A program made the translations under genes and the position numbers. The notes under the pieces were generated by a model. It worked only from the letters and a program-made list of their open reading frames with translations. It did not search any database and had not been told where the DNA came from. From Cytophagales bacterium (GTDB taxonomy: Bacteria > Bacteroidota > Bacteroidia > Cytophagales > Cyclobacteriaceae): a stretch of DNA of 56,532 bases. This document shows positions 19,001-42,106 of this stretch, one piece after another. Each line of letters starts with the position of its first letter. Positions within the stretch are counted from its first letter, which is position 1. The DNA is taken from contig JAAFHY010000005.1 of NCBI GenBank assembly GCA_013298505.1, positions 37,899 through 94,430 on the forward strand. Direction: 5' to 3'.

Positions 19001-19059
19001 GAAGGAATAGTTACTTCACACCTAGAACATTTACATTTGGTCTGTCGTTTGGTCTTTAA
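16036..19059 (+). CDS. SusC/RagA-type TonB-dependent outer-membrane transporter
   Basis: A 1007-residue outer-membrane receptor. Signal peptide to about residue 25 (FGAASAFAQ), then a CarboxypepD_reg-like domain (about 26-110, SGKVTSSDDGSGIPGVNILE). The TonB-box region SEVVVVGYG precedes the plug (about 115-235) with the SusC signature NVLKDGSAAAIYGSRGSSG. A 22-strand barrel follows and the chain ends in an aromatic-flanked strand (TFTFGLSFGL). It has no N-terminal STN domain, so it is not the type that signals to an anti-sigma factor. The SusD partner starts 30 bp later. Together they should bind and import oligosaccharides, here presumably alpha-glucans, using TonB energy. Confidence 0.95.
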   Translation: MTKLYLFVRRYLAVMMVFGAASAFAQQSVSGKVTSSDDGSGIPGVNILEKGTSNGTVTDSDGNYTISIGVNATLAFSFVGYTQQEVSVGSQTTVNVKMESDVTSLSEVVVVGYGSQDKKEITSSVVSLSTKEFNQGNVNDPTQLLQGKVAGLSIYNRGGDPNTGAVIRLRGISTVGANVQPLVVVDGVLGASLDNIDPNDIESINVLKDGSAAAIYGSRGSSGVILVTTKRGSSKGGGLSVTYNGYIAAAEVLNRVPIMSASQFIAAGGNNLGGNTDWQKEVTRTGITHVHNLGISGGSQNTTFRLSTNIREVQGILKKSGFDQINARANLTHSALNDKLKIDVNMAFTNRNSNFSFTEALRYASLYNPTAPKRFPSGEFFQAILFDNFNPVAILDQNINEGKRRNLNYNAKIDYSIIDDLTLTVNFGQQYENVLNGEYYSRNSLFRGLNRGGLARRYTSEKSFTLFEAYATYTKQFGKIDLSANAGYSFQQDNFEDIFISLGNFPNDALGYNALEQSGDLLTGITGANNINIQSNTSPTNKIIAQFARISLTYDKAIFFNASVRNEGSTKLGANNRYGLFPALGLGVDLNRYLQIQKIDNLKLRVGYGVTGSLPNDAGLAQELYTYSNQNGGAITKARAANANLRWEEKRETNIGLDFSIGGKFSGSIDVYSRNVKDFVSSVPVPFAQFGADRQFQNAGSLSTTGFEFNLNYDAIQFGQVRWTPGLVLSSYKSTLESIVGAPVQVRSNFGAPGQNSTPLIRVAVGEEIGQIWGPVFNRVSAGGSDGKEQVRDQNDPNKGVAAGGVIFADLNGDGQVLAEPGSALNPNGDYRKLGSGIPTMEIGWRNQLSYKNWDLNVFFRSAFGHSLVNSFRGFYEPLDAGAINSYNRVITSKAVAGLTEAKFSSLYVEKADFFKLDNATLGYTVKRSNSNGTLKNIRLYFSVQNAFVITSYTGIDPEPVLQDPGAFDNGAFAPTVGEQDVLAPGIDRRNSYFTPRTFTFGLSFGL

Positions 19060-19089: not shown

Positions 19090-20637
19090 ATGAAAAACTT
19101 AGTAAAGTATAGTCTGATTACCTCTCTTTTACTGGGTGGTGCAGCATGTACCAACTTGGATGAGCAGATCAAGGGTGATTTTACCAAGCAAGAAGCATTG
19201 CTCAATCAAGGTGTAGGTCAGAAAATTAACGTAAATAAGGCAACTCCTAACGATGGTCTAGCTGGTGCTTTTACTCGCGTACTGAATGGAACAGCAGGTC
19301 ACAATAGTTACTTTTCGGTTCAAGAAGTATCCACTGATGAAGCGGTAATTACACAAAAAGGCGGTGACTGGTTCGATGGAGGCATTTGGCTAAATATGCA
19401 CAAGCATTCCTTTAATTCTACTATTGGTGGAATAAACAATGCTTGGAACGATGCGAATGCAGGAATTTTCCAGTGTAATGATTTATTGTCTAAAACTCAA
19501 ACTGCTGGAAATGTAGCCCAACTAAAAACTCTTAGAGCTTATTTTTTCTGGAGATTATTAGATGTTTTTGGTAGAGTTCCACTAGCCACTTCAACAGCAA
19601 AAGTACCTCAATCAGAGCGCCCGGTTGTATACGCATTCGTAGAATCAGAGCTTCTTGCTGCCTTGCCTGACCTCCCTTCAGGCAAGCAGGAGTATGGTCG
19701 TTTCAACAAAAGTGGAGCTTATGCGCTTTTAGCTCGCTTGTACTTGAATGCTAATATTTACAAAGGAACTGCTCCTGATAATGCGGATTATGACAAAGCA
19801 ATTGCAGCAGCAGATGCCGTTATTAATTCAGGACTGTACACAATAACTGGTAATAAATATAAAGATGTATTTTCACCTTCAAATGTGGAAAATGCGGAAC
19901 ATATTTTTGTTGCACCCTTCGATGAAGCAACTGGACAAGGTATGAATCTGGCTCAGATGACACTCCACTACCCAAGTCAACTTACTTTTAGGCTTGCAGA
20001 ACAACCTTGGAATGGTTATTCTACTTTGGAGGAGTTCTACAATTCTTATGAAGCTACTGATGAAAGGAAGGCCAATAACTTCGTTGTAGGTCCGCAGGTT
20101 GATTTAAATGGAAATCAAATTTTGGATTTGGCCTTTGATAAGGGCGATGCAGACGGAGCTCCTATTAATTATACTCCTGCTATTAACATGTTGGCTCCCA
20201 ACGGCTCTCGCCAGGCAGGAGCTAGATTTGGTAAGTTCTCGTTTAAGTTAGGACAATTTCAAAATATGGATAATGACTACCCTCTTTTGCGCTACGGAGA
20301 AGTATTGTTGAATAAAGCAGAAGCATTAGCTCGGAAGAATGGATACGGAGATGCGACCGCATTGGCATTAGTGAATCAAATAAGAACCCGTGCAGGAGTT
20401 GTGCCTTTTGGTAGTCTTACAGAGGGCACTCTTTTAGCTGAGCGGGGCCGCGAGTTGTTCATTGAGGGATTGAGGAGAACAGATTTGATTCGTTTTGGAG
20501 CTTGGGGAAATGCGTGGTGGGAAAAACCTGCACACTCAGATGCGTTTAAAAATTTAATGCCTATACCTCTCGAACAAATTAATGCTACCTCTGGCGATGG
20601 AGCTAACAAGCTGACTCAAAATCCTGGTTACCAATAG
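19090..20637 (+). CDS. SusD/RagB-type glycan-binding lipoprotein
   Basis: A 515-residue surface lipoprotein that caps the SusC barrel. The signal ends at Cys20 (GGAAC), followed by TNLDEQ. The TPR-like helical body contains LRAYFFWRLLDVFGRVPL and GAYALLARLYLNANIY, and the C-terminus has the diagnostic segment RGRELFIEGLRRTDLIRFG. Length is normal for SusD. It is co-transcribed with susC. A strong hairpin follows the stop codon, so genes further right may be expressed at lower level. Confidence 0.95.
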   Translation: MKNLVKYSLITSLLLGGAACTNLDEQIKGDFTKQEALLNQGVGQKINVNKATPNDGLAGAFTRVLNGTAGHNSYFSVQEVSTDEAVITQKGGDWFDGGIWLNMHKHSFNSTIGGINNAWNDANAGIFQCNDLLSKTQTAGNVAQLKTLRAYFFWRLLDVFGRVPLATSTAKVPQSERPVVYAFVESELLAALPDLPSGKQEYGRFNKSGAYALLARLYLNANIYKGTAPDNADYDKAIAAADAVINSGLYTITGNKYKDVFSPSNVENAEHIFVAPFDEATGQGMNLAQMTLHYPSQLTFRLAEQPWNGYSTLEEFYNSYEATDERKANNFVVGPQVDLNGNQILDLAFDKGDADGAPINYTPAINMLAPNGSRQAGARFGKFSFKLGQFQNMDNDYPLLRYGEVLLNKAEALARKNGYGDATALALVNQIRTRAGVVPFGSLTEGTLLAERGRELFIEGLRRTDLIRFGAWGNAWWEKPAHSDAFKNLMPIPLEQINATSGDGANKLTQNPGYQ

Positions 20638-20662: not shown

Positions 20663-20696
20663 AATAGCGCCTAACTTTGTTGGGCGCTATTTTTTT
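20663..20696 (+). terminator. Terminator or attenuator between susD and the first CRTAC1-like gene
   Basis: A 9-bp stem (AATAGCGCC at 20663-20671 pairing with GGCGCTATT at 20683-20691) with an 11-nt loop and T7 at 20690-20696. The next start codon is only 5 bp further on (20702), so there is no room for a separate promoter after it. Confidence 0.85.
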
Positions 20697-20701
20697 GATC
20701 G

Positions 20702-23700
20702 ATGAGATATTATTTTCCATTCTTTTTGGTTTGTCTGGCATCATGTAAGGATCGTGAGATAGTCTCTCCACTATTTATAAATCTTGCTGCCAAAAGTGGA
20801 ATTGAATTTAACAATTCACTTGCTTATACAGAGCGCTTAAATCCCTATACGTACCGTAATTTCTACAATGGTGCAGGTGTAGCTATTGGCGATCTTAACA
20901 ACGATGGCTTGGAAGAGGTGTATTTTGCTTCGAACCAGGGAGAAAATAAATTGTTTAAAAACAGGGGTGGGTTTCAATTTGAAGATATCACTTCTTCTGC
21001 AGGCGTAGGTTGTGGCGGTTCTTGGTCAACGGGTGTGGTATTTGCCGATGTAAATGCGGATGGCTATTTGGATATCTATGTTTGCAAGTCAGGAGATCCT
21101 AATTCTCCCAACAGACACAATGCACTGTTTATCAATAACCACGATCTCACTTTCACCGAAAAAGCCAAAGAATATGGACTCGATGTGATTGGGTTATCTG
21201 TGCAAGCTGCCTTCTTTGATTTTGATAAAGATGGCGACCTGGATTGTTATTTGTTAACTAATTCGTTTAAGCCAGTTGGGAATTTTGAATTGGTGAAGGA
21301 GCAACGCCAAGTGCCGGATGAAATGGGTGGCGGAAATCGATTTTTTATAAATGAGGGGGGCTATTTTAAAGACCGCTCACAGGAGTCGGGGATATACCGC
21401 AGTAGTATCGGTTTCGGTTTGGGCATCACCTTGGGAGATTTTAACAATGATACTTGGATAGATGTCTTTGTTTCAAATGATTTTTTTGAACGGGACTACC
21501 TCTACATCAATAATCAAAAAGGAGCGTTTACTGAATCACTGCCTATGTATTTTAAATCTATCAGCATGGGTTCGATGGGGGCCGATTTTGCAGACTTGGA
21601 TAATGATGGCTTAGCCGATCTCTTTGTCACCGAGATGCTTCCGGACTCATTGGCGAGGAAAAAATCAAAGATTGTATTTGAGTCTTGGAATAAATATCAA
21701 TTCAATCTGCAGCAGGGATATCACCACCAGTTTGCGAGGAATGTCCTCCAAAAACAAGTTAGCCCTGGGCACTATTTAGAAGTGGGTCGATATGCGGGCG
21801 TTGCTGCTTCCGAATGGAGTTGGGGTGCTTTGCTCTTTGATATGGACGGAGATGGAAAACGAGATATTTTTGTAGCCAATGGTATCTACAAAGATCTGTT
21901 AGACCGCGACTATTTGACTTATACAGGTTCTGACGAAAACGTTCGCGCATTGATCCAACAAGAAAAGAAGGCAATTATTAAGCTCGTTAATTCGATGCCA
22001 TCATCAAAATTTCCGAATTATGCCTTCGAAAATAAAGGTGATCTTCAGTTTGAAAATAAATCCAGCGCGTGGGGTCTAGGTGAACCCATGTATTCAAGTG
22101 GAAGTGCTTATGGCGATCTAGATAATGATGGTGATCTGGATCTGGTTGTCAATAATGTCAATGCGCCATCAGGCGTGTTTCAGAACCAAACGGATACATC
22201 CCGGTTTAAGAATATTAGCTTTTTGATTACTTCTCAATCAGATAATACATTTAGCACAGGTACGCACGTGAAAGCGTATGTAGGTTCAAGGATTTTTCTG
22301 TCCGATAACTTCGTGGTACGCGGCTACCAGAGCTGTGTGTCTAACAGAGTCGTCATTGGGTTGGGTGAAAACGTTACTTTGATTGACTCAGTAGTTTTTT
22401 CATGGCCAACTGGGGGACGCTCGAAGCTCGTGAAAGTTAAACCAAACCAAGTGATACGAATTCAAAAAGACAGCCTGCGAGTTTTTGATTTTCCTAAAAC
22501 GAGTAGTTCGAGCTCGCCACTATTAAAAAAGATTGAGTTGGTTGAGTTCACCCATGCTGCCAACGACCTAAACGACTTTGACAGAGATCGGTTGCTACCG
22601 ATGATGTATTCAAATGAAATACCTTCTGTGCTAAAAGGTGACATTAATAAAGATGGAGTGGAAGAATTGTATATCGGTGGAGGGAAGGGGCAATCTGGTA
22701 TTTTCCTGGGTTTTAAGCGAGGTAAGATGGCAGTCCTAGACATGCCAATTATGAAGTCGTTTGTCGGTTCTGAAGAGACCAAAGACGCCTTTTTTGATGC
22801 CGATAAAGATGGTGATATTGATCTTTACCTGGCTTTTGGTGGGCGTTCCTATCCAAAGAGTTCAACCAATTTGCTGGATGTTGTCTTGCTTAATGATGGA
22901 ACTGGGAATTTTTCAGTTTCACCGAATCGGTTACCGTTTTTTGAATTCAACTCGACCAGTGTAGTGAAGCCCATTGATTTTGACAACGATGGCGATTTGG
23001 ATCTCTGTATTGCAGAACGTTTTGACCCTTTCAGTTATGGGGTGGGGGGCCGAGGCTTCTTGTTTCAAAATGACGGCACGGGAAAGTTTAAGGACGTAAC
23101 AATGGTTTATGCACCTGACCTGTACAAACTCGGAATGATTACCGACATCGAGGTCCAAGATGTTGATAAAAACGGGTGGCAAGACCTAATGATAGTGGGA
23201 GACTGGATGCCCGTCACCTTTCTCAAAAATGTAAAAGGACATTTTGTAAATGGCAAAGAATTAATCGGGCTCAACGACTCAGAGGGTTGGTGGCATGAGA
23301 TTGAATCAGGGGATTTGAACAATGATGGAAAAGTGGACTTTGTTGTTGGAAACAATGGATTGAATTCATTTTTTCGTAAGAAAGATAGGATGTATGTTAA
23401 TGATTTTGATCAGAATGGATCTATTGAGCAGATTTTCTGCACAGAACTCAACTGCAAGTACTATCCATTGTTGGATAAAGATGAGTTATTGTCTCAGCTG
23501 CCTGGACTAAAGAAGCAACTTTTGTATTATAGAGATTATGCTAGGAAATCAATCGCAGACCTGTTTCCCAGAGAGATATTGGAGAAGTCTACGGTCTTTC
23601 AAGTAAATGAACTTCGGTCATTACTCTTAATTTCGGACCATGGCGTTTATCGAAAAGTCGCGCTGCCAAAAGAAGCTCAGTTTTCTTCCATTTACGCAAT

Positions 23701-23962
23701 GCGACTTCTTGATGTTAACAATGACGGGGTAATTGATTTAATTGCGGGTGGAAATCAAGACAAAGTGAAGCCGCAATTTGGTCCAAATAATGCATCACGT
23801 GGTTGGCTATTCCTAGGTAGGCAAAAAAATGGAATTTTCGAGTTCGATCACGGCATTGACTTAGGTATTGAAGGCGAAATCAGAAGTATAGAGTATATTG
23901 AACATGAAGGAAAAATGTACATTTTTTTTTGCAAAGTATGGGGACAAGATGGAAGTTTTTGA
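20702..23962 (+). CDS. CRTAC1-like FG-GAP/VCBS repeat lipoprotein with ASPIC/UnbV domain, paralogue 1
   Basis: A 1086-residue lipoprotein (LASC, Cys15, then KDRE, an acidic stretch that could act as a surface-export signal). It is built of FG-GAP/VCBS beta-propeller blades carrying calcium-loop motifs D-x-D/N-x-D-G; I count about thirteen, for example GDLNNDGLEEVYF, FDFDKDGDLDCYLL, GDLDNDGDLDLVVNN and LLDVNNDGVIDLI. An ASPIC/UnbV-type domain (about 490-600, with VVFSWPTGGRSKLVKVKPNQ) divides two propeller-like halves. The family is common in Bacteroidota near SusCD genes; its biochemical role is not established. It lies 5 bp behind the susD hairpin. Two closely similar paralogues follow. Confidence 0.85.
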   Translation: MRYYFPFFLVCLASCKDREIVSPLFINLAAKSGIEFNNSLAYTERLNPYTYRNFYNGAGVAIGDLNNDGLEEVYFASNQGENKLFKNRGGFQFEDITSSAGVGCGGSWSTGVVFADVNADGYLDIYVCKSGDPNSPNRHNALFINNHDLTFTEKAKEYGLDVIGLSVQAAFFDFDKDGDLDCYLLTNSFKPVGNFELVKEQRQVPDEMGGGNRFFINEGGYFKDRSQESGIYRSSIGFGLGITLGDFNNDTWIDVFVSNDFFERDYLYINNQKGAFTESLPMYFKSISMGSMGADFADLDNDGLADLFVTEMLPDSLARKKSKIVFESWNKYQFNLQQGYHHQFARNVLQKQVSPGHYLEVGRYAGVAASEWSWGALLFDMDGDGKRDIFVANGIYKDLLDRDYLTYTGSDENVRALIQQEKKAIIKLVNSMPSSKFPNYAFENKGDLQFENKSSAWGLGEPMYSSGSAYGDLDNDGDLDLVVNNVNAPSGVFQNQTDTSRFKNISFLITSQSDNTFSTGTHVKAYVGSRIFLSDNFVVRGYQSCVSNRVVIGLGENVTLIDSVVFSWPTGGRSKLVKVKPNQVIRIQKDSLRVFDFPKTSSSSSPLLKKIELVEFTHAANDLNDFDRDRLLPMMYSNEIPSVLKGDINKDGVEELYIGGGKGQSGIFLGFKRGKMAVLDMPIMKSFVGSEETKDAFFDADKDGDIDLYLAFGGRSYPKSSTNLLDVVLLNDGTGNFSVSPNRLPFFEFNSTSVVKPIDFDNDGDLDLCIAERFDPFSYGVGGRGFLFQNDGTGKFKDVTMVYAPDLYKLGMITDIEVQDVDKNGWQDLMIVGDWMPVTFLKNVKGHFVNGKELIGLNDSEGWWHEIESGDLNNDGKVDFVVGNNGLNSFFRKKDRMYVNDFDQNGSIEQIFCTELNCKYYPLLDKDELLSQLPGLKKQLLYYRDYARKSIADLFPREILEKSTVFQVNELRSLLLISDHGVYRKVALPKEAQFSSIYAMRLLDVNNDGVIDLIAGGNQDKVKPQFGPNNASRGWLFLGRQKNGIFEFDHGIDLGIEGEIRSIEYIEHEGKMYIFFCKVWGQDGSF

Positions 23963-24546
23963 AGTACAGCGTTAGTTGTCTATCAATTTGTGTTTTAATG
24001 TCCGGCTGTTTTCAGTCGGAGTACACACGATTAGTAAAGGCGGAATTGGCCAAGGGGGTTAGGCATGATTCTCTACTATTCGGTATTCGTTTTGGAGATA
24101 CAAGAAATGAATTTTATGGAAAGTGTTTCGATTTAAACAGGCAACAGTTGGTAACTGCGGGGGCGGGCAACAATGTAGAGTATATTTTTTCTGACTCGTT
24201 GTTTCATCGTAAGCCTACCAATTTGAGCCTTCTCTTTTATCCTTCATTTGATCAAAATGACAAAATTGCAGACATGAAAATGCAATTCACTTATCGGGCG
24301 TGGGCTCCGTGGAATCGGGATATGCAATCAGATTCACTTCTGGGAAAAACCGAAAAAATACTAATGAATTGGTATGGTGGGAACGATTTTATTTTAGCGG
24401 ACGTTGCCGGCAAACGAATGCCCGTTAAACTGGACGGAAACAGAAGAATTCTTGTTTATACATTGGATATGAAAAGTGTATTGGTAGAGGTTCAGGATAT
24501 TCTACATCCGGTTTTTAAGCATGATAGTAATAGTGAAAAAAAGTAA
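23938..24546 (+). CDS. Small lipoprotein of unknown function between CRTAC1-like paralogues
   Basis: A 202-residue lipoprotein. I start it at ATG 23938 (a TTG lies three codons upstream), giving a signal that ends LMSGC at Cys24. The mature part begins with a charged helix (SEYTRLVKAELAKGVRHDS) followed by LLFGIRFGDTRNEFYGKCFDLN, a segment I vaguely recall from other uncharacterised Bacteroidota proteins near such loci. The rest appears alpha/beta and ends in a long helix-strand pair. Its start overlaps the preceding gene by 25 bp and its end overlaps the next by 26 bp, so its production is coupled to the CRTAC1-like proteins. It may be an accessory subunit; this is inference. Confidence 0.75.
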   Translation: MGTRWKFLKYSVSCLSICVLMSGCFQSEYTRLVKAELAKGVRHDSLLFGIRFGDTRNEFYGKCFDLNRQQLVTAGAGNNVEYIFSDSLFHRKPTNLSLLFYPSFDQNDKIADMKMQFTYRAWAPWNRDMQSDSLLGKTEKILMNWYGGNDFILADVAGKRMPVKLDGNRRILVYTLDMKSVLVEVQDILHPVFKHDSNSEKK

Positions 24547-27500
24547 AATTAGTTTTGCGTTAAGTGGACAAAGCAGTCAGCTCGTATTGTTTTTTCTTGT
24601 GCTTTTTTTGGTTTCTTGTTCCAAGCCAGCTGAAAAGCCGATTCAGAAACTCTTCTCCTCGTTGAATCCAGATTCTACTGGCTTGTCTTTTCGGAACACT
24701 TTGGCATTTAATCGTGAATTTAATATTTATACCTACCGTAATTTTTATAATGGCGGAGGAGTTGGTATTGGAGATATCAATAACGATGGACTAGTTGATA
24801 TTTATTTAGTTGCTAATCAGGCACCCAACAAGCTTTTTATTAATAAGGGTAATTTCAAGTTTGAGGACATCACGAGTACGTCAGGTGTGGGTGGAAGCAA
24901 GTCATGGTCAACGGGTGTAAGTATGGCTGACGTAAACGGTGATGGGTGGGTAGATATTTATGTTTGTAATTCGGGCGATGTAAAAGGTGACAACAAGGAA
25001 AATGAATTGTTTATCAATAATGGTGATTTGACATTTACAGAACGCGCAAAAGAGTATGGGTTGGCCGACAGGGGCTTTACAACTCATGCTATTTTTTTCG
25101 ACTATGACAAAGACAGTGACCTAGACGTCTACATCCTAAATAACTCCTATCGGGCTATTGGAAGTTTTAACCTTCAAAAAAACGAGCGTCCTAGACGTGA
25201 CGTATTGGGTGGCGATAAATTAATGCGTAATGACAACGGACATTTCACAGACGTTAGCGAGCAAGCAGGTATTTATGGAAGTGTGATTGGATTTGGCCTA
25301 GGTGCTACTATCGGGGATATTAACAAGGATGGATGGTTGGATATCTATGTGTCAAACGATTTTTTTGAGCGAGATTATTTGTATCTTAACAATAGAGATG
25401 GCAGTTTTAAAGAGTGCCTAACAGAGCAGATGAAGTCTGTTAGTGGAGCCTCGATGGGGGCAGATTTGGCAGACGTCAACAATGACTCTTATCCTGATAT
25501 CTTCGTTACAGAGATGTTGCCAAAGTCAAACCAACGTCTAAAGACAGTGACTACTTTTGAGAATTGGGATCGATATCAAAACAATTTGAATAACGGTTTT
25601 TATCACCAGTTTACGCGCAATATGCTTCAACTGAATAATGGCGATAATTCTTTTAGTGAAATTGGAAGATTGACAGGAATGGAAGCAACAGAATGGAGTT
25701 GGGGTGCGTTGATTTTCGATATGGACAACGATGGACTCAAGGATGTTTTTGTTGCCAATGGAATCTACCAGGATCTAACTAATCAAGATTACCTTCAATA
25801 TGTGTCAAGTGGGGAAGTTGTCAAGTCGATTGTGTCTAATAATCAAGTCGACTACAAAAAATTGGTTGAATTGATTCCTTCGACTCCTGTCTCGGACTTT
25901 GCTTTTCGTAATTTGGGTTCACTTCGATTTGAAGACAAAACTGTTTCTTGGGGGCTTGATGAGCTAAATTTTTCCAACGGAAGCGCATATGCTGATCTTG
26001 ACAATGATGGAGATATGGACCTTGTTATTAATCGCGTAAATGAGCAGGCTTCTATGCTCCGCAACGAGACCAATCTACTAAATCAAAAGAATAGATATTT
26101 GAAGTTTGAATTGCGCGGCCTAGGGTTAAACTCAAATGCTATTGGAACAAAAATTACCGCAAAAACTGGAGGGGTTACGTATTATTTAGAACATTTACCA
26201 AATCGTGGCTTTGAATCTTCTGTCGACCCAAGACCCAATTTGGGTGTAGGAGAGTTCAAATATATGGATGAAGTGGTGGTGGAGTGGCCGTCCGGTGTGC
26301 AAACGACTTTGACCCACGTTGCTACCAATCAAACAATAACCTTGCGGGAAGCAGATGGAATTGTTGTTGCCCAGCGTTCATACGAAAATTCAAAAACGAA
26401 AATCTTCTCAAAAGGATTTCTTATATCAGATATTGATAGCCATAGCGAGAATGATTTTGTTGATTTTGATCGGGATCGACTAATTTACCATATGTTGAGT
26501 ACAGAAGGCCCCAAAGTATCGGTTGCAGATACAGACGGAGATGGTTTAACGGATTTTTTTATTGGCGGAGCTAAAGATCAGGCAAGCACTATATACACTC
26601 AAACAGCGGCTGGCAAATTTTCTAAAAAGGATACGCGGTTTTTGAACGAACGAACTTCGGAGGACACGGGAAATATTTTTTTTGATGCGGACGGTGATGG
26701 CGACCAAGATCTTTATGTGTGCAGCGGGGGCAATGAATTTTCGCCAAGCTCGTCTGCTTTTTTGGATCGACTCTATTTTAATGATGGAAAAGGTGGATGG
26801 ACTAAATCAAAACAAGCACTTCCATCGGGTAAATTTGAAAGCACATCTAGTGTAGTGGCATCCGATTTTGATTCTGACGGTGACAAGGATCTTTTTGTCG
26901 GTGCACGACTGACTCCGTTTAGTTATGGCGTGCCAGTCAATGGATATATTCTAAAAAATGATGGAAGAGGTTTTTTTTCTGTTTCACAAACTTTTGAAAA
27001 TATAGGAATGATAACAGATGCGATATGGGCCGATATTGATGCAGATCGTGATGAAGACCTTGTTCTAGTAGGGGAGTGGATGCCTGTTTGCGTGTACCTA
27101 AACAATAATGGTATTTTGAAAAAATTAAACCAAGTGCCGGGCTCCAGCGGGTGGTGGAACTGCATTGAGGCTGGAGACTTTGATAAAGATGGTGATGTCG
27201 ACTTTGTTGTTGGTAATCATGGTATTAATTCTAGATTTAGCGCTAATCAGGAAAAGCCAGTTTCGATGTGGGTAGGCGACTTTGATCAAAATGGAACCGT
27301 AGAGCAGATCATTTGTACTTTCAATGGAGACAAGAGTTACCCCCTAACATTGAAACATGATTTACTTTCACAAATACCATCTTTAAAAAAGAAATTTTTG
27401 AAATACGAGAGTTACAAAGACGCGACCATCACAGATGTTTTTACACCAGAGCAGCTTGAACCTGCGCTTAAGCTTGAAGCGACAAATTTATCCAGTTCAG

Positions 27501-27856
27501 TCTTGATCAACGATGGAAAAGGAAATTTCAAAATAGAACCGCTGCCCGTTGAAGCTCAGTTTTCTCCCGTGTATGGTATTTTGATGGATGACATTGACAG
27601 GGATGGTAATCTTGATTTACTATTAGGAGGAAATCTCTATCGCGTAAAGCCCGAAGTAGGTCGATATGATGCCAGCTTTGGAACTTTTCTAAAAGGTGAT
27701 GGAGAGGGAAAGTTTAAAACGGTACCTAACCGCGATTGTGGACTGATGATTGATGGAGAGGTTCGCGACATCAAACGAATCAAAGTGGGCAAGGATAACC
27801 TGATACTGGTTGCCCGTAATAACGATACACCCATTTTCTTGAAAGTGAATGAATAA
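24521..27856 (+). CDS. CRTAC1-like FG-GAP/VCBS repeat lipoprotein with ASPIC/UnbV domain, paralogue 2
   Basis: An 1111-residue lipoprotein (FLVSC, Cys33). Order of parts is the same as in paralogue 1: propeller blades with GDINNDGLVDIYL, ADVNGDGWVDIYVC, GDINKDGWLDIYVSND and ADLDNDGDMDLVINR, an ASPIC/UnbV domain near residues 525-620 (VVVEWPSGVQTTLTHV), then a second blade set. Shared landmarks with paralogue 1 such as NIYTYRNFYNGGG, FEDITS and VTEMLP show tandem duplication. The start overlaps the small lipoprotein gene by 26 bp, and the end overlaps paralogue 3 by 8 bp. Calcium binding is expected from the loops; the ligand is unknown. Confidence 0.85.
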   Translation: MIVIVKKSKISFALSGQSSQLVLFFLVLFLVSCSKPAEKPIQKLFSSLNPDSTGLSFRNTLAFNREFNIYTYRNFYNGGGVGIGDINNDGLVDIYLVANQAPNKLFINKGNFKFEDITSTSGVGGSKSWSTGVSMADVNGDGWVDIYVCNSGDVKGDNKENELFINNGDLTFTERAKEYGLADRGFTTHAIFFDYDKDSDLDVYILNNSYRAIGSFNLQKNERPRRDVLGGDKLMRNDNGHFTDVSEQAGIYGSVIGFGLGATIGDINKDGWLDIYVSNDFFERDYLYLNNRDGSFKECLTEQMKSVSGASMGADLADVNNDSYPDIFVTEMLPKSNQRLKTVTTFENWDRYQNNLNNGFYHQFTRNMLQLNNGDNSFSEIGRLTGMEATEWSWGALIFDMDNDGLKDVFVANGIYQDLTNQDYLQYVSSGEVVKSIVSNNQVDYKKLVELIPSTPVSDFAFRNLGSLRFEDKTVSWGLDELNFSNGSAYADLDNDGDMDLVINRVNEQASMLRNETNLLNQKNRYLKFELRGLGLNSNAIGTKITAKTGGVTYYLEHLPNRGFESSVDPRPNLGVGEFKYMDEVVVEWPSGVQTTLTHVATNQTITLREADGIVVAQRSYENSKTKIFSKGFLISDIDSHSENDFVDFDRDRLIYHMLSTEGPKVSVADTDGDGLTDFFIGGAKDQASTIYTQTAAGKFSKKDTRFLNERTSEDTGNIFFDADGDGDQDLYVCSGGNEFSPSSSAFLDRLYFNDGKGGWTKSKQALPSGKFESTSSVVASDFDSDGDKDLFVGARLTPFSYGVPVNGYILKNDGRGFFSVSQTFENIGMITDAIWADIDADRDEDLVLVGEWMPVCVYLNNNGILKKLNQVPGSSGWWNCIEAGDFDKDGDVDFVVGNHGINSRFSANQEKPVSMWVGDFDQNGTVEQIICTFNGDKSYPLTLKHDLLSQIPSLKKKFLKYESYKDATITDVFTPEQLEPALKLEATNLSSSVLINDGKGNFKIEPLPVEAQFSPVYGILMDDIDRDGNLDLLLGGNLYRVKPEVGRYDASFGTFLKGDGEGKFKTVPNRDCGLMIDGEVRDIKRIKVGKDNLILVARNNDTPIFLKVNE

Positions 27857-30800
27857 GGGATGGCTACTATTCGTTTGTGGTTTTAGTTTTTTTTTCCTCA
27901 TTCAGTGTAAAGAAAAAAAAATCATATCAACCCTGTTTTCGTCAAGGCCAGTATCAGAAACGGGTATAGATTTTAGTAATCAGCTAACCGAAGACAAAAA
28001 CTTCAATATCATTGAATACCTCTACTTCTATAATGGGGGTGGAGTTGCCTGCGGAGATATCAACAATGATGGGCTGGTAGATATTTATTTTTCGTCTAAT
28101 CAAAATTCAAACAAGCTTTACTTGAACAAAGGTGATTTTAGGTTTGAGGACATCACGGAAAAATCGAAAACAAAGGGAATTGGAAATTGGAAGACAGGTG
28201 TCACCATGGCAGATGTCAATGGCGATGGGTACTTAGATATTTATATTTGTGGGGTTGGCAACTACAAAAGTTTCAATTCGCAAAACCAATTGCTCATCAA
28301 CAATGGTGACCTAACCTTTTCTGATCAGACTGAAGAGTATGGATTACAGTTCAAAGGTTTTTCTACCCAGACCATTTTTTTTGATTACGATTTAGATGGT
28401 GATTTAGATTGTTACTTACTTAATCATTCTGTGCACAGTGCAAGCTCGTATGTTTCCGTAACGAATCGAGCGAAATCGGATTCTCGGAGTGGTGACCAAT
28501 TTTTTAGAAATGAGTTGGTAAGTAATGGTAAGAATTCAGGAGTGGTTCGTTTTGTGAACGTAACCAATGAAGCAGGAATACTTAGCAGCCGATTGGGCTA
28601 CGGTTTGGGTGTAGGTGTTTCGGATATTAACCTTGATGGATATCCTGACATCTATGTATCAAATGATTTTCAGGAGAATGATTATTTATACATCAACAAT
28701 AGAAATGGCACGTTTAAACAAGTACTTGAAAAGTCGCTAACTCAATCCAGTCGATTTTCAATGGGTAATGATATTGCTGATGTAAACAATGACGGACGCC
28801 CAGATATTTTTACTACTGATATGCTTCCAAGAGATGAATCGGTGATAAAAACATCTGCTGGAGAAGATGCATACGAAGTGTACAAATACAAATTGAAATT
28901 TGGTTATCACTATCAGGTGGCGCGCAATTGCCTTCAGCTCAATCGATATATCACTGACTCACTTGTTACCTTTAGTGATATAGCCCCTTTGGCGGGAGTA
29001 GAAGCCACAGATTGGAGTTGGTCTCCCTTGCTGGCAGATTATGACAACGATGGATTGAAGGACTTGTTTGTTTCGAATGGCATTGTTCGCAGACCGAATG
29101 ACCTTGACTATATTAATTTTATTTCCAATCAAGCAATTCAAGATTCACTCATGACAATCGAATCTTCTGACTTGGTTGTTCTAAATTCTATGCCGGATGG
29201 TAAAGTCGCTAACGTGGCTTTCAAAAATATAGACGGCATCCATTTCCAAGATGTTTCTTCAGATTGGGGGATCAATACGCCTTCTTTTTCCAATGGTAGC
29301 GCGTATGCTGATCTGGACAATGATGGGGATTTGGATGTGGTGGTGAACAATGTTAATGAACCAGCTTTTGTCTACCAAAACAGTAATAAGGCATCTAGTA
29401 TTACAATTAATCTAATTGGGAGTAAACCAAACTTATTTGGGATAGGTACTAAAATTTTGTCTTTTGCCGATGGTAAAGTTCAACATCATGAAGTTTCAGC
29501 TACTCGTGGATTTAGCTCGGCTTCAGATACACGAGTGATTATTGGTATTGGAAATTCTGTAAAAGCAGACTCGGTATTTGTTGTTTGGCCAGGCAGAACT
29601 TTTCAAAAATTAGATCAAATCGAAGCTGGGAAAAGAATTTCTGTAAAACAATCTGATGCTAAGGGAAGGTTTGATTTAAGTCGACTGTTCGCTCGTGAGA
29701 GTATGTTCGAACCTTTGCCCAAATCAGCAATCCCAAATTTTGTCCACAGAGAAGATGATTACAATGCCTTCAACAATGAAGGACTGATTCCACACATGCT
29801 CACTACCCAAGGGCCACCCTTGGCACAAGGTGATGTGAACAGTGATGGTTTAGCAGATATTTTTGTGGGTGGTGGCAAAGACCAATCGGCTTCAATTTTT
29901 ATTCAATCAAAGCAAGGTGAATGGAAAACAAAAGCCAACAAAGACTTTGTTTCTGATTCTTTTGCGGAAGATGTAGCTGCCGAATTGTTTGATGTAGATG
30001 GTGATGACGACTTGGATTTATTGGTAGCGGCTGGTGGCCAAGACCCCACTAACAAACCCCAGGGTCTGCGACCAAGACTTTACATAAATGATGGGCAAGG
30101 AAATTTTCAGCGTGGCGATAACTCAATACCGAGAATACTATTGAATGCATCGTGCATCAAGCCATTTGATTATGATAGGGATGGAGATTTGGATGTGTTT
30201 ATTGGCGCAAATGTAATGCCCTTTTTATATGGCATGGCACCGCAAAGCTTCCTGTTGCAAAATGACGGTAAAGGGAATTTTTCAGATGTTAAGAATTGGT
30301 TAGGCAATAGTCGGTTTGATAATCCAACGCAAGTGAGACCTGGACTAGTGAAGGATGCCGCTTGGTCGGATGTAAATAAAGATGGCCGCATCGACCTTTT
30401 ATTAGTTGGGGAGTGGATGCCCATCACTATTTTGATTCAAAATCAAAGTCAGCAGTTTGAAAATCAGACTGAACGGTTCGGCACTAAATTCACCAGCGGC
30501 TTATGGAATTCAATCGAGAAGTTCGATTTTGATGGGGATGGAGATGATGATTATATACTCGGCAACTTAGGTCAGAATTCGCGATTAAAAGTTTCTGCTG
30601 ATAAGCCATTGGTGATGTACTTAGGAGACTTTGATAGCAACGGTGGGTCAGACCATATTTTGGTTTACTACAATGGCGACAAAAGTTATCCGTTTGCTTC
30701 ACGGGACCAGTTGATCAAGCAGCTTCCCATTTTAAAGAAAAAATTCTTGCATTATAAAGACTACCGCAATGTAAACTTAGAGGATATCGTTACTCCTCAA

Positions 30801-31208
30801 CAAAAAGGAAACTCAGCTCGCATTCAAGTAGAAGTGCTCAGTTCATCGTACCTTCGAAATGACAAAGGCAGATTGACCTGCGTGGACTTACCTTCAGAAG
30901 CGCAGTTTAGCCCAATTTATGCCATCGCCATTGAGGATGTCAACATGGACGGCTTCAAAGATTTGGTACTTGGAGGGAATTTGGATGCTGTTCAGCCCGA
31001 TTTTGGCAGGTATGATGCGAGTATTGGGTTAGTAATGTTTGGAGATGGTAAGGGCAATTGGAAAGCGAAAGATGCGCAAGAATCTGGATTTGTGGTGAAG
31101 GGAGAAGTACGAGATATTCGGGTTATCAGTAATTTCAAAAAGGAAAAAAATGTCTTCCTTTCAAGGAATAATCAGTCCGTGGTAGGATTTAAAATAATAT
31201 CTCAATGA
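27849..31208 (+). CDS. CRTAC1-like FG-GAP/VCBS repeat lipoprotein with ASPIC/UnbV domain, paralogue 3
   Basis: An 1119-residue exported protein with the same layout as paralogues 1 and 2. The hydrophobic N-terminus ends LIQC (Cys20) followed by KEKK; glutamine before the cysteine is unusual for a lipobox, so lipidation is likely but less certain. Blades include GDINNDGLVDIYF, FDYDLDGDLDCYLLN, SDINLDGYPDIYVSND and ADLDNDGDLDVVVNN. The ASPIC/UnbV domain lies near residues 515-600 (VFVVWPGRTFQKLDQIEAG). It is the most divergent of the three: the segment after FNIIEYLYFYNGGG lacks the YTYRN signature. The stop overlaps the GH65 start by 4 bp (ATGA). Confidence 0.83.
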   Translation: MNKGWLLFVCGFSFFFLIQCKEKKIISTLFSSRPVSETGIDFSNQLTEDKNFNIIEYLYFYNGGGVACGDINNDGLVDIYFSSNQNSNKLYLNKGDFRFEDITEKSKTKGIGNWKTGVTMADVNGDGYLDIYICGVGNYKSFNSQNQLLINNGDLTFSDQTEEYGLQFKGFSTQTIFFDYDLDGDLDCYLLNHSVHSASSYVSVTNRAKSDSRSGDQFFRNELVSNGKNSGVVRFVNVTNEAGILSSRLGYGLGVGVSDINLDGYPDIYVSNDFQENDYLYINNRNGTFKQVLEKSLTQSSRFSMGNDIADVNNDGRPDIFTTDMLPRDESVIKTSAGEDAYEVYKYKLKFGYHYQVARNCLQLNRYITDSLVTFSDIAPLAGVEATDWSWSPLLADYDNDGLKDLFVSNGIVRRPNDLDYINFISNQAIQDSLMTIESSDLVVLNSMPDGKVANVAFKNIDGIHFQDVSSDWGINTPSFSNGSAYADLDNDGDLDVVVNNVNEPAFVYQNSNKASSITINLIGSKPNLFGIGTKILSFADGKVQHHEVSATRGFSSASDTRVIIGIGNSVKADSVFVVWPGRTFQKLDQIEAGKRISVKQSDAKGRFDLSRLFARESMFEPLPKSAIPNFVHREDDYNAFNNEGLIPHMLTTQGPPLAQGDVNSDGLADIFVGGGKDQSASIFIQSKQGEWKTKANKDFVSDSFAEDVAAELFDVDGDDDLDLLVAAGGQDPTNKPQGLRPRLYINDGQGNFQRGDNSIPRILLNASCIKPFDYDRDGDLDVFIGANVMPFLYGMAPQSFLLQNDGKGNFSDVKNWLGNSRFDNPTQVRPGLVKDAAWSDVNKDGRIDLLLVGEWMPITILIQNQSQQFENQTERFGTKFTSGLWNSIEKFDFDGDGDDDYILGNLGQNSRLKVSADKPLVMYLGDFDSNGGSDHILVYYNGDKSYPFASRDQLIKQLPILKKKFLHYKDYRNVNLEDIVTPQQKGNSARIQVEVLSSSYLRNDKGRLTCVDLPSEAQFSPIYAIAIEDVNMDGFKDLVLGGNLDAVQPDFGRYDASIGLVMFGDGKGNWKAKDAQESGFVVKGEVRDIRVISNFKKEKNVFLSRNNQSVVGFKIISQ

Positions 31209-33232
31209 AACATTTACTTATCCTAGTCTTGTCGCTATGTTCAGTTGAAATTTTTTCACAACAAAACGACCCTTGGCTCATCTCCGCCACCTCCATCAAC
31301 CCCAACAATTACTACGGAGTAACTGTAGCCAACGGCATGGTCGGCTTAGTCTCTTCCCCCGAGCCTATGAAAGTGAGAGATGTAGTGTTGAATGGTGTTT
31401 ACGATTATTATCAGCGGGGCAGGGTTTCCAACATCCTCAAAACATTCAACCATGCCAATATGAATTTGGATGTAGACGGGCGGAGAATCGGGATGAAAGA
31501 TATTTCCAACTACCGGCAAACGTTGGATATGAAGAAGGCAATTTTAGTAACAACCTTTGACGTGGGCGATCAATTATCAGTTAAGCACTCGATGATGGCG
31601 CTTCGTCATTTGCCATATACCGCGATGTCAATCGTAGAGCTCAAAGCGAAGAAGGATGTGAAGGTGACACCGATGAGTGTAATTGAAGCTCCTAATCACT
31701 TGGCCGATGTGCGCAATACATATAGCGAAATAGATCGGCCTCATGTGAAGTTGCCCTTATTATCTTCAGTAGGAAAAAGCCCCTCTGGTAAGCACACAGT
31801 TGCGGCTAGTAATAGCATTATTTTTTCGGAGCCCCATGGGCAAGAGCCTGATCTCATTCATGAAGATTGGGACTACAGTATGCATCTCGCAAAATTCAAT
31901 AAGAGTTTAAAAGCTGGAGAGACCTATTCGTTTAGCGTGGTTTCTTCAGCAACGTCTACTGCAAATTTTCAAGATCCACTAAATGAAGCGGAACGCCTCA
32001 CCATTTTCGCGCGATTGGAAGGAACAGAAAGGTTGCTTCAACACCACGTGGCTGAATGGGAAAAATTGTGGAAGAGCGACATCGTTATTGAGGGGGATTT
32101 GCAAACACAAAAAGATGTTCGCTTCGCCTTGTATCATCTTTATTCGTTCGCAAGAGAGGGGACAGGCTTAAGCCTTTCTCCTATGGGATTGTCGGGCTTA
32201 GGTTATAACGGCCACGTATTCTGGGATACCGAGTTGTGGATGTATCCACCAATCCTCATGCTCCAACCGGAGATTGCTAAATCAATTTTAGAGTATAGGT
32301 TCAATCGATTGGCGGCAGCAAAACAGAATGCTTTTTCGCATGGCTACAAGGGGGCGATGTTCCCTTGGGAATCATCCGCTGAGGGCACTGAAGATACTCC
32401 CGTCTGGGCATTAACGGGTCCGTTTCAACAGCATATTACGGGCTGTGTGGGCTGGGCATTTTGGAAGTACTATCAAGTAACTAAAGACAAGCAATGGTTA
32501 AAGGACAGAGGTTATCCAATGCTAAAAGAAGTAGCCGACTTCTGGGCAAGTAGAGTAGAACGAAAAGGTCCTGGTCGATTTGAAATCAACAATGTGATTG
32601 GTGCCAATGAGTGGCAAGAAAATATTGACAACAACGCATTTACCAACGGGATGGCCATTACAGTATTGAGGTATGCCACACAGGCCGCAAAAGAAATGGG
32701 TATAGCCCCAAACCCCGATTGGGAAGTGGTAGCTCAAAATATTCCTATTTTAAAATTTCCTGACGGCACAACGAAAGAAAACGCAACCTATGATGGTGTG
32801 ATCATCAAGCAAGGTGACGTTAACTTGCTCGCCTTTCCGTTGGACTTTATCACCGACAAAACACAAATTGAGAAAGATTTGAAATACTACGAACCTCGTT
32901 ACTCATCAGAAGGCCCGGCAATGGGACATTCAGCGTTGTCTGCCATTTATTCGCGAATTGGCAATGTGGAGAAAGCAACCGAGCTTTTTGCAAAATCATA
33001 CAAGCCAAACGAAGTTCCACCTTTTGGTGTTTTAGCTGAGACAGCGGGTGGAACCAATCCTTACTTTGCGACAGGGGCGGGTGGATTTTTACAAGCCGTG
33101 ATGAACGGATTCGGTGGGCTAACTATTTCGGACGCAGGTATTACTCAAATAAAAACCAAGCTCCCAAAAACATGGAAGTCGTTGGAGATAAAAGGAGTAG
33201 GGCTGACAAAGGTCAGTTTTTCGGTGAAGTAA
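31205..33232 (+). CDS. Exported GH65 family enzyme, predicted alpha-glucoside hydrolase
   Basis: A 675-residue protein with signal peptide (cleaved near EIFSQ). The (alpha/alpha)6 barrel carries GH65 landmarks: GHVFWDTELWMYPP, the GYKGAMFPWESSAEGTE loop, and GANEWQENIDNNAFTN with the general acid Glu469. A second glutamate, Glu612 in LAETAGGTNPYF, lies 143 residues later. From memory, GH65 hydrolases (human PGGHG, Flavobacterium kojibiose hydrolase) have a general-base glutamate about 144 residues after the acid, whereas phosphorylases have a phosphate-binding loop there. I therefore predict a periplasmic hydrolase, possibly for alpha-1,2-linked glucose. It is translationally coupled to paralogue 3. 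Confidence 0.85.
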   Translation: MKHLLILVLSLCSVEIFSQQNDPWLISATSINPNNYYGVTVANGMVGLVSSPEPMKVRDVVLNGVYDYYQRGRVSNILKTFNHANMNLDVDGRRIGMKDISNYRQTLDMKKAILVTTFDVGDQLSVKHSMMALRHLPYTAMSIVELKAKKDVKVTPMSVIEAPNHLADVRNTYSEIDRPHVKLPLLSSVGKSPSGKHTVAASNSIIFSEPHGQEPDLIHEDWDYSMHLAKFNKSLKAGETYSFSVVSSATSTANFQDPLNEAERLTIFARLEGTERLLQHHVAEWEKLWKSDIVIEGDLQTQKDVRFALYHLYSFAREGTGLSLSPMGLSGLGYNGHVFWDTELWMYPPILMLQPEIAKSILEYRFNRLAAAKQNAFSHGYKGAMFPWESSAEGTEDTPVWALTGPFQQHITGCVGWAFWKYYQVTKDKQWLKDRGYPMLKEVADFWASRVERKGPGRFEINNVIGANEWQENIDNNAFTNGMAITVLRYATQAAKEMGIAPNPDWEVVAQNIPILKFPDGTTKENATYDGVIIKQGDVNLLAFPLDFITDKTQIEKDLKYYEPRYSSEGPAMGHSALSAIYSRIGNVEKATELFAKSYKPNEVPPFGVLAETAGGTNPYFATGAGGFLQAVMNGFGGLTISDAGITQIKTKLPKTWKSLEIKGVGLTKVSFSVK

Positions 33233-33262
33233 ATTGTTTTATTTGCAGCTTTAAAGTTTAAT

Positions 33263-34603
33263 ATGGATCGAGCTAAGACACTTGTAGTTTACTTTCTAGG
33301 AGTTCTAATTCTTATCATCGGATCGTGTACATCTGCAAACAATACTGAATATAAAGTCAAGGTCAGCAATCCAGAATTCCTTCATCGCTCCATGAAGGCG
33401 ATAACTGACCGCATCGTCCATGATATTTTTTCTCCGCCTGTTGCAAGCAGAATATACACGTATGCAAGCGTTGCAGCCTATGAAGCAGCGATTCAGCAGG
33501 ACTCTAGTTTTAGAAGCTTGGCGGGTCAATTAAATGGATTGGAGAGTGTGCCAAAGCCAGATTTTTCCAAAGAACATAGTTTTGATCTGGCCGCTACACA
33601 ATCTCTATTGAAAGTTGGCAGAACGTTGATATTTTCTGAAGCAGACTTGGATATTTTCATCGATCAGATCATGAAGGAGTACAAGTCAACCGGAATCCCT
33701 GACGATGTTTTCGATCGCTCAATCGCCTACGGTGATCAGGTGGCGGCTCATATTTTAGCATGGTCGTCAAAAGATAACTACAAGCAATCACGCAGTTTTC
33801 CGAAGTACTCTATCGAGAACAATCCGGCTACATGGAAGCCAACGCCTCCTGCGTACATGGATGCGGTTGAACCTCACTGGAACAAAATCAGGCCTTTTGT
33901 TATCGATTCTGCAGCGCAATTCAAACCCGTTCCGCCAACACCCTTCTCTACTCAGAAGACAAGTCAGTTTTACAAAGAAGCACTGGAAGTCTTTGAGGTG
34001 GTAAAGAATGCTACCGAAGAGCAAAGCGCCATCGCTAGCTTTTGGGATTGTAACCCTTTTGCCATGAACGTAAGAGGCCACGTGATGTTTGCTACCAAGA
34101 AAATTTCGCCAGGCGGCCATTGGATAAATATTACTCGAACCGTTTGTACACAATCTAAAGCCACATTGGTTCAGTCGGCAGAGGCCTACACAAGAGTTTC
34201 ATTGTCGCTCGTAGATGGCTTTATCAGTTGCTGGGACGAAAAATATAGAAGCCGAGTGATCCGCCCCGAGACATACATCAATCAGTATATCAACGAAGAC
34301 TGGGTGCCCATTTTGCAGACGCCACCGTTTCCTGAATACACCAGCGGCCATAGTGTTATTTCTTCCTCTGCTTCCGTTGCCCTAACAAAATTGTTTGGTG
34401 ACAATTATGCGTTTACCGATTCGACTGAAGTGGAGTTTGGTATGGGCGCGAGAAAGTTTGCATCCTTCTATCAGGCCGCAGAAGAAGCAGGAATCTGCCG
34501 AATGTACGGAGGTATACATTACCGACCAGCATTTGAGGTAGGAGGGAAGCAAGGAAGAGCAGTGGGTGAGTTGATTGCCCAGCGAATCGTTACCAAAAAG
34601 TAG
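33263..34603 (+). CDS. Vanadium-dependent haloperoxidase/PAP2-family lipoprotein
   Basis: A 446-residue lipoprotein (IGSC, Cys22). The C-terminal half has the three-part PAP2/vanadate-binding signature: Lys327-x6-Arg334-Pro (KYRSRVIRP), Ser-Gly-His with His363 in YTSGHS, and Arg413-x5-His419 (RMYGGIHYR). Proteins of this group either oxidise halides with peroxide, using vanadate, or hydrolyse phosphate esters. Which one applies here cannot be decided from the motifs. It is the last gene of the run that begins at 20702, 30 bp after the GH65 gene, and is followed by a terminator. A halogenation or phosphatase step in a glucan locus would be unexpected. Confidence 0.85.
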   Translation: MDRAKTLVVYFLGVLILIIGSCTSANNTEYKVKVSNPEFLHRSMKAITDRIVHDIFSPPVASRIYTYASVAAYEAAIQQDSSFRSLAGQLNGLESVPKPDFSKEHSFDLAATQSLLKVGRTLIFSEADLDIFIDQIMKEYKSTGIPDDVFDRSIAYGDQVAAHILAWSSKDNYKQSRSFPKYSIENNPATWKPTPPAYMDAVEPHWNKIRPFVIDSAAQFKPVPPTPFSTQKTSQFYKEALEVFEVVKNATEEQSAIASFWDCNPFAMNVRGHVMFATKKISPGGHWINITRTVCTQSKATLVQSAEAYTRVSLSLVDGFISCWDEKYRSRVIRPETYINQYINEDWVPILQTPPFPEYTSGHSVISSSASVALTKLFGDNYAFTDSTEVEFGMGARKFASFYQAAEEAGICRMYGGIHYRPAFEVGGKQGRAVGELIAQRIVTKK

Positions 34604-34621: not shown

Positions 34622-34648
34622 GGGTTCTGAACTGAACCCTTTTTTTTT
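34622..34648 (+). terminator. Rho-independent terminator after the haloperoxidase gene
   Basis: Stem GGGTTC (34622-34627) pairs with GAACCC (34634-34639) around a 6-nt loop, followed by nine T (34640-34648). It ends the long rightward transcript. Confidence 0.85.
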
Positions 34649-40567: not shown

Positions 40568-40609
40568 TTTTTCACCAAACGGTCTTACGTCTTTTGTCTT
40601 ACTACTTAA

Positions 40610-42106
<1,497 letters not shown>

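Follow-up and report, generated by a model that had tools for sequence, protein, structure and literature searches.

We analysed a 56,532-nucleotide stretch of a Cytophagales bacterium genome (GenBank assembly GCA_013298505.1, 3.96 Mb in 206 contigs, 98.9% complete; contig JAAFHY010000005.1), here called the window, in which a susC-susD pair is followed by six genes on the same strand. These encode three CRTAC1-like propeller lipoproteins (CRT1, CRT2 and CRT3, at positions p1, p2 and p3), a small lipoprotein (SLP), a family 65 glycoside hydrolase (GH65) and a vanadium haloperoxidase-type protein (VHPO). A first-pass annotation, made from the sequence alone, had described the six genes as a coupled cassette behind susCD, with four or five lipoproteins, tandem propeller paralogues of about 1100 residues and a closing terminator. 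The open reading frames (ORFs) were confirmed, with overlaps of 25, 26, 8 and 4 bp and then a 30-bp gap, as were the propeller lengths, and lipobox-like starts were recognised by eye in five of the six proteins (CRT1, SLP, CRT2, CRT3 and VHPO). A terminator-like hairpin does close the cassette, but a second hairpin, between susD and CRT1, had been overlooked. The locus is composed as follows.

16036..19059, plus strand: SusC-type TonB-dependent transporter (TIGR04056, 642 bits, cut-off 368; top solved chain 8aa4_A)
19090..20637, plus strand: SusD-type lipoprotein (Pfam SusD_RagB; lipobox, then TNLDEQ)
20663..20691, plus strand: terminator-like hairpin with T tail (13 pairs, -18.2 kcal/mol), 10 nt 5' of the CRT1 ATG
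20702..23962, plus strand: CRT1 (p1), CRTAC1-like propeller lipoprotein, 1086 aa (FG-GAP_3, UnbV_ASPIC; p1 clade)
23938..24546, plus strand: SLP, small lipoprotein, starting at ATG 23938 (the automatic ORF list begins it at TTG 23929); no Pfam or NCBIfam family, confident predicted fold
24521..27856, plus strand: CRT2 (p2), CRTAC1-like double-propeller lipoprotein, 1111 aa (FG-GAP_3, UnbV_ASPIC)
27849..31208, plus strand: CRT3 (p3), CRTAC1-like propeller lipoprotein, 1119 aa (FG-GAP_3, UnbV_ASPIC; p3 clade)
31205..33232, plus strand: GH65 of kojibiose hydrolase type with a plain signal peptide (NF053734, Glyco_hydro_65m, 7fe3_A); optional cargo
33263..34603, plus strand: VHPO, vanadium iodoperoxidase-type lipoprotein (4cit/4usz, 503 bits; vanadate-site residues)
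34622..34639, plus strand: closing terminator-like hairpin, T9 (terminator scan)

Pfam FG-GAP_3 and UnbV_ASPIC domains scored above cut-off in all three CRTs, which places them in the ASPIC/UnbV family, and these are the only three ASPIC/UnbV matches in the whole genome; the genome likewise holds a single VHPO match (E 1e-20), at this locus. CRT2 folds as a double propeller. The three CRTs contain 13, 11 and 13 DxDxDG-type calcium sites, as compared to 0.5-0.7 in shuffled sequences, a motif count that fits the calcium dependence suggested for them earlier.

To follow the gene order, the ORFs of relatives were annotated by phmmer. The scan of named genomes kept 80 of 232 relatives and gave 79 loci. 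Counts were made on 98 of 100 SLP loci (L082 and L198 had no SLP in their ORF calls); L018 to L033, partly duplicates of named loci, were left out, L151 (100 bases) was unused, and the counted loci may still include duplicates, as the remaining set was not de-duplicated. Of the 148 genomes searched in the window's order, 17 encode an SLP homologue, as do 30 of 392 in its phylum; both figures include the window's own genome. A CRT lay directly upstream of SLP in 84 of 96 loci and directly downstream in 90 of 95, two CRTs followed SLP in 63 of 87, SusC and SusD preceded SLP by no more than three genes in 67 of 77, and VHPO lay within five genes in 39 of 81. The complete order SusC-SusD-CRT-SLP-CRT-CRT-VHPO was found in 34 of the 98 loci, in Cytophagales and Flavobacteriales genomes. 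Its SusCD-CRT-SLP-CRT core extends to Chitinophaga japonensis and Bacteroidales metagenome-assembled genomes (MAGs; L096, L071, L103), and a Saprospiraceae MAG (L102) has CRT-SLP-CRT-CRT-VHPO at the start of a contig. More distant genomes (L191, L192, L193, L195, L206) carry the shorter SusCD-CRT-SLP-CRT, with no VHPO in the stretch examined. The order is therefore not confined to close relatives; such confinement was what the first-pass annotation had named as refuting its proposal, and a conserved assembly linked to SusCD is thereby supported. The gene order is not due to chance, and the locus represents one form of an extensive Bacteroidota cluster family, laid out as SusC-SusD, hairpin, CRT(p1)-SLP-CRT(p2)-CRT(p3) and variable cargo, often with a vanadium iodoperoxidase-type lipoprotein.

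A control set consisted of 39 loci centred on other ASPIC matches, hand-picked from the best-scoring ones listed rather than drawn at random. In 23 of these, one of the five preceding genes was SusC, and the idea that CRTs are tied solely to SLP clusters was rejected. VHPO was the next gene in 14 control loci and lay within five genes in 18.

The hairpin behind susD also recurs. Taken together, the terminator scan gave no excess of terminator-like sites (14 versus a shuffle mean of 15.6). Among relatives, 64 of 95 susD-CRT junctions have such a hairpin in the 160 nt that follow susD, as compared to 31 of the 271 remaining same-strand gaps with a length of 30-250 nt, and it lay inside the susD-CRT gap itself in 55 of 90 cases (shuffles, 1.4%). 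Gaps elsewhere contained one in 0 of 61 (SusC-SusD), 1 of 8 (CRT-CRT), 0 of 17 (CRT-VHPO) and 3 of 30 (after VHPO) cases; the other susD junctions had it in 5 of 8 (SusD-SLP) and 2 of 7 (SusD followed by another gene). The stem ended a median of 34 nt before the estimated CRT start (61 junctions), and within 41 nt in 38 of them, a distance that mostly leaves insufficient space for a promoter. In the window there is no such space, and the cassette would therefore depend on read-through. The hairpin probably acts as an attenuator, with SusCD abundant and the cassette less so.

Phylogenetic trees, from which CRTs shorter than 900 aa were left out, indicated that each propeller position largely corresponds to a lineage of its own. 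In a tree of 253 sequences, a single clade of 74 (support 1.0) took in 70 of 71 p1 proteins, and a clade of 68 (support 0.978) took in 58 of 58 p3 proteins; p2 was paraphyletic, p1 having arisen from within the p2 stock. The joint p1 and p2 clade held 71 of 71 p1 proteins, 75 of 76 p2 proteins and none of the control CRTs. In a larger tree, made by adding 85 sequences, SLP-less triplets of Flavobacteriaceae split by position into three separate clades (each with 11 of 11, support 1.0), and the final CRT before VHPO grouped with p3 in 11 of 11 triplets and 4 of 4 doublets. These clades indicate that, for the most part, propellers at different positions have descended separately. Of the earlier suggestion that the three paralogues have different roles, the separation of lineages stands, and the different ligands stay a proposal.

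No Pfam or NCBIfam model matched SLP. Its fold was predicted with a pLDDT of 93.1, in a model that begins at window position 23971 and omits the first 11 residues. Neither Foldseek nor VIA-align returned a clear relative of this fold, although a missing match does not prove a new fold. At least 1351 relatives were found at E 1e-5 when the best 7996 candidates in the protein database were scored; the 120 listed all lacked Pfam domains, and where a name was shown it was hypothetical protein or lipoprotein. At one locus (L032:4062-8325), the gene beside the SLP homologue encodes an FG-GAP protein of 1228 aa, which has a type IX secretion tail but gave no ASPIC match.

The VHPO scored barely above the Pfam PAP2 cut-off (27.5 versus 27.2). 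Its single solved sequence relative at E 0.001 was ZgVIPO1 (4cit, 4usz), with 503 bits over residues 21-441. Residues K327, R334, H363, R413 and H419, which we assign to the vanadate site (K, R, SGH, R, H), were shared with ZgVIPO1 and invariant in 13 of 13 aligned proteins. Position 266 is F in the window VHPO and Y in 10 of the 13. ZgVIPO1 is reportedly a vanadium iodoperoxidase of Zobellia galactanivorans that has been studied biochemically by itself. By homology, the window VHPO is of the vanadium iodoperoxidase type and, by analogy, would oxidise halide with H2O2. The closing oxidative or phosphatase step proposed earlier is thus best taken as oxidative, although a phosphatase role is possible.

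Relatives of the window VHPO were found in 55 of 148 genomes of its order, and a search with the ZgVIPO1 sequence gave matches in 129 of 299 Flavobacteriaceae genomes at E 1e-40, one of them 99% identical. The latter gene (L209), like that of the window, lies behind three CRT genes; no SusCD was seen in the stretch examined, and a locus with an 89% relative of this gene (L210) also has SusCD. Upstream, where L210 has SusCD, L209 carries DNA polymerase IV-type and DNA polymerase III alpha-type genes (L209:14769-18963). Twenty Flavobacteriaceae VHPO loci were hand-picked down the match ranking: CRTs lay upstream of VHPO in all 20, with XylAB and a symporter between them in three, and SusC or SusD lay on the VHPO strand in 16. 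A GyrI-like-domain protein of about 300 aa recurs beside SLP-less CRT-VHPO clusters (L209:575-1471, L129:11590-12483, L140:7467-8366); the domain is above cut-off in the first two and scores 25.8 against a cut-off of 26 in the third. The idea that VHPO is confined to clusters was rejected, as stand-alone VHPO genes occur in the window's order. Several of the stand-alone loci among L155-L169 score as high against the window VHPO as cluster-borne ones, and in the two that were scanned (L161, L164) the gene adjoins methyltransferase or amine-oxidase-type genes.

The GH65 matched the NF053734 kojibiose hydrolase equivalog with 1122 bits (cut-off 800) and Pfam Glyco_hydro_65m, and its top solved chain was 7fe3_A (780 bits), presumably FjGH65A. 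By family, the enzyme would act on a kojibiose-type substrate. Its inclusion in the core set, as first proposed, did not hold: GH65 is missing from most relatives' loci and was rejected as a core gene. It sits at the corresponding position in L034 and L035, as well as in SLP-less clusters of the same genus or family (L129, L140, L141, L153). The window itself is an alpha-glucan neighbourhood, which also includes a major facilitator superfamily (MFS) transporter and the following genes.

9671..12037, minus strand: GH13 with an AMPK1_CBM domain and a lipobox-like start (domain scan)
12006..14414, minus strand: GH31 of alpha-glucosidase type (domain and sequence search)
14501..15550, minus strand: LacI-family regulator, divergent from susC (Pfam LacI/Peripla_BP)
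34860..36707, plus strand: SusA/cyclomaltodextrinase-type GH13, directly 3' of the cassette (1h3g, 452 bits; SusA 9fyz, 426 bits)
39860..42106, plus strand: MIP channel and glycerol kinase GlpK

A glycerol-3-phosphate dehydrogenase/oxidase-like gene lies further on (53191-54834). Neighbours were counted by phmmer best matches in 117 relatives' loci, in stretches of up to 20.6 kb. These comprised LacI-type regulators (37), SSF transporters (17), GH13 (13), MFS (13), glycerol genes (GlpF/GlpK/GlpD, 11), GH65 (8; four phosphorylase-type and four kojibiose-type or nearer to it), beta-phosphoglucomutase (6, two of which were checked and lay above cut-off), GH31 (6), XylA (5) and GH97 (1). Glycerol kinase directly follows VHPO in six relatives (L084, L087, L090, L093, L101, L108). 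The glycerol neighbours could point to alpha-glucosylglycerol as a candidate substrate.

Some clusters carry other enzymes. Xylose isomerase and an FGGY kinase occur inside or beside the CRT cluster in L211-L213, L045 and L215; the best model for the kinase was xylulokinase, below cut-off in the one scanned. In L021, L029 and L030, SLP-CRT clusters include a 3-keto-disaccharide hydrolase and a cupredoxin-domain protein, with no VHPO in the stretch examined. A 1130-aa protein with ThuA, glucose/sorbosone dehydrogenase, PKD, cytochrome c and CBM6 domains lies beside VHPO or CRT at L116:3385-6774 and L126:4818-8225.

Our preferred reading, held with slightly less than even confidence, is that this is a Sus-like alpha-glucoside uptake locus in which calcium-binding double-propeller lipoproteins take the place of SusE/F and a membrane-bound peroxidase is added. 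Judging by family, SusCD would take in the sugar. The propellers would be large proteins stiffened by calcium that assemble with SusCD and serve for capture or as a scaffold. Gene order and co-inheritance suggest that p1, SLP and p2 form one unit, with p3 directed towards the peroxidase. GH65 would cleave alpha-1,2-glucosides in the periplasm, and the VHPO, like its iodoperoxidase relative, may use H2O2 and halide either for peroxide removal or to produce hypohalite at the feeding site. The hairpin would keep SusCD more abundant than the remainder.

Several observations weigh against this reading. The first concerns location, for which lipoboxes were recognised by a regular expression, not a trained predictor. 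An acidic run after the lipid cysteine is the surface-export signal of Bacteroidota. SusD proteins have D/E in 65-73% at +3, +5, +6 and +7 (based on the 106 of 135 in which a lipobox was recognised), unlike CRT, SLP and VHPO, which lack a strong run and reach at most 32%, 39% and 28%, respectively, at any position. This pattern suggests that only SusD bears the export signal, and CRT, SLP and VHPO may face either side of the membrane. Of the surface or periplasmic assembly with SusCD proposed earlier, the conserved linkage stands, and the export signal is clear for SusD alone.

Second, the recurrent linkage to SusCD is incomplete, as both CRT and VHPO are found at loci with no SusCD near them, and VHPO at loci with no CRT. 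No SusC was seen within five genes in 16 of the 39 control loci (three end after SusD), and neither SusC nor SusD in 4 of the 20 hand-picked Flavobacteriaceae stretches. Among 83 VHPO matches above 300 bits in the window's order, 55 are accompanied by a CRT on the same strand, either no more than 12 kb away or in the stretch examined, whereas 27 have none near (four of these have an opposite-strand CRT and several lie on short contigs); one (G098), with VHPO on another contig, is undecided. Third, in the larger tree only 76 of 84 p1 proteins fell in the p1 clade of 80 (support 1.0), seven p1 proteins of distant genomes clustered with p2 elsewhere, and the clade of 91 with all 67 p3 proteins dropped to a support of 0.642. 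Fourth, component distances correlate (SusC-SusD 0.94, SusC-p1 0.84, p1-SLP 0.86, p2-p3 0.84; 30-59 loci, 0 of 200 permutations as high for each), but they carry no species-tree control and vertical descent alone could produce them, and the values for VHPO with other components are lower (0.54-0.64). Finally, neighbouring catabolism is mixed, as the counts of GH13, GH65, GH31, glycerol and XylA genes indicate, and many of the 117 loci are without any nameable catabolic gene.

One alternative, which we consider unlikely but serious, puts the halide chemistry first: CRTs and VHPO would together make up a membrane-bound peroxidase that depends on calcium and uses H2O2 to oxidise iodide or bromide, whether to accumulate iodine, to remove peroxide or to kill competitors, with SusCD and the sugar genes as fuel supply or secondary. 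The 503-bit match to ZgVIPO1, the 99% identical gene behind three CRTs, and the retention of CRTs in 20 of 20 picked Flavobacteriaceae loci versus SusC or SusD in 16 are all consistent with it. On the other side, VHPO was seen in only 39 of 81 SLP loci, and a VHPO-bearing cluster also occurs in a groundwater MAG (L035), where iodide is expected to be scarce. Also in its favour, iodine uptake by Arenibacter C-21, a member of the Flavobacteriaceae for which a haloperoxidase has been proposed and whose genome has at least five ZgVIPO1-like PAP2 genes, requires glucose, oxygen and calcium (PMC5064120); that calcium need, however, could stem from a sugar-oxidising enzyme.

Genes for cupredoxin-domain proteins, sugar dehydrogenases or 3-keto-disaccharide hydrolases are present in some of the clusters. 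In a second alternative, which appears quite improbable, the CRTs would be enzymes or enzyme partners for oxidised or dehydrated sugars, with VHPO, sugar dehydrogenases and cupredoxin proteins as alternative redox partners of one propeller core. Loose hitch-hiking, in which an ordinary alpha-glucan polysaccharide utilisation locus (PUL) carries unrelated lipoproteins and a haloperoxidase, would account for the variable presence of GH65 and for stand-alone VHPO genes, but is very improbable given that the order recurs across orders and the propeller lineages are position-specific.

Beyond the uptake locus with a membrane-bound peroxidase that we prefer, a more speculative 'peroxidase utilisome' can be imagined, in which position-specific, calcium-dependent double propellers and SLP dock VHPO to SusCD and couple sugar capture to halide oxidation. 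We regard it as improbable. If true, it would be the machinery behind the calcium-, glucose- and H2O2-dependent iodine accumulation of marine Flavobacteriaceae, and SusCD would have a partner complex of a new kind beside the SusE/F type. The link to iodine physiology, drawn from the ZgVIPO1 homology and the calcium, glucose and oxygen needs of C-21 (PMC5064120), is offered as a testable idea and not as a result. With relatives of ZgVIPO1 in 129 of 299 Flavobacteriaceae genomes and of the window VHPO in 55 of 148 order genomes, and propellers kept in 20 of 20 picked Flavobacteriaceae loci, this is a common cluster for which no published role was found. The propellers are candidate partners for the biochemically studied ZgVIPO1, and the gene order opens direct tests of propeller ligands, of the need of VHPO for CRTs or calcium, and of the role of the cluster in iodine accumulation.

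Among the matches listed in open-licence PMC, no paper paired ASPIC/UnbV or VCBS propellers with SusCD or a haloperoxidase; the recurring SusCD-propeller-haloperoxidase order was found described nowhere, although ZgVIPO1 has been studied alone. Compared with CRTAC1 (9etn) and the ASPIC/UnbV family, CRT2 differs by a second full propeller and a lipobox. In the available text of PMC12758564, a CRTAC1-family FG-GAP gene lies between hydrazine-synthase-like alpha and beta-gamma genes in a recurring redox set; the partners there are of cytochrome type, whereas here they are SusCD and VHPO. According to the available text of PMC2668756, the surface domains by which marine Bacteroidetes bind calcium include FG-GAP repeats; no such cluster is shown there. 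Marine Flavobacteriia alpha-glucan PULs likewise combine GH13, GH65, GH31 and GH97 with susCD, and the words VCBS, FG-GAP and haloperoxidase are absent from the main text describing them (PMC11093988). The closest comparison is with Sus and FjDexUL, which, in the text available, share with this locus the susCD pair, GH enzymes and a regulator. FjDexUL holds the kojibiose hydrolase FjGH65A and a SusE/F homologue, FjDusE, in whose place CRT-SLP-CRT-CRT stands here; the words VCBS, FG-GAP and lipoprotein are absent from the main text of that paper (PMC10316084). A SusE/F-type lipoprotein after susD, prototypical but not obligatory, was not found among the six genes, which match other Pfam families or none, and VHPO is an addition relative to both systems. 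With an adjacent susC-susD pair and adjoining GHs (GH65, GH31 and two GH13), the locus is a PUL by its SusCD and carbohydrate-active enzymes, and it carries a new accessory module.

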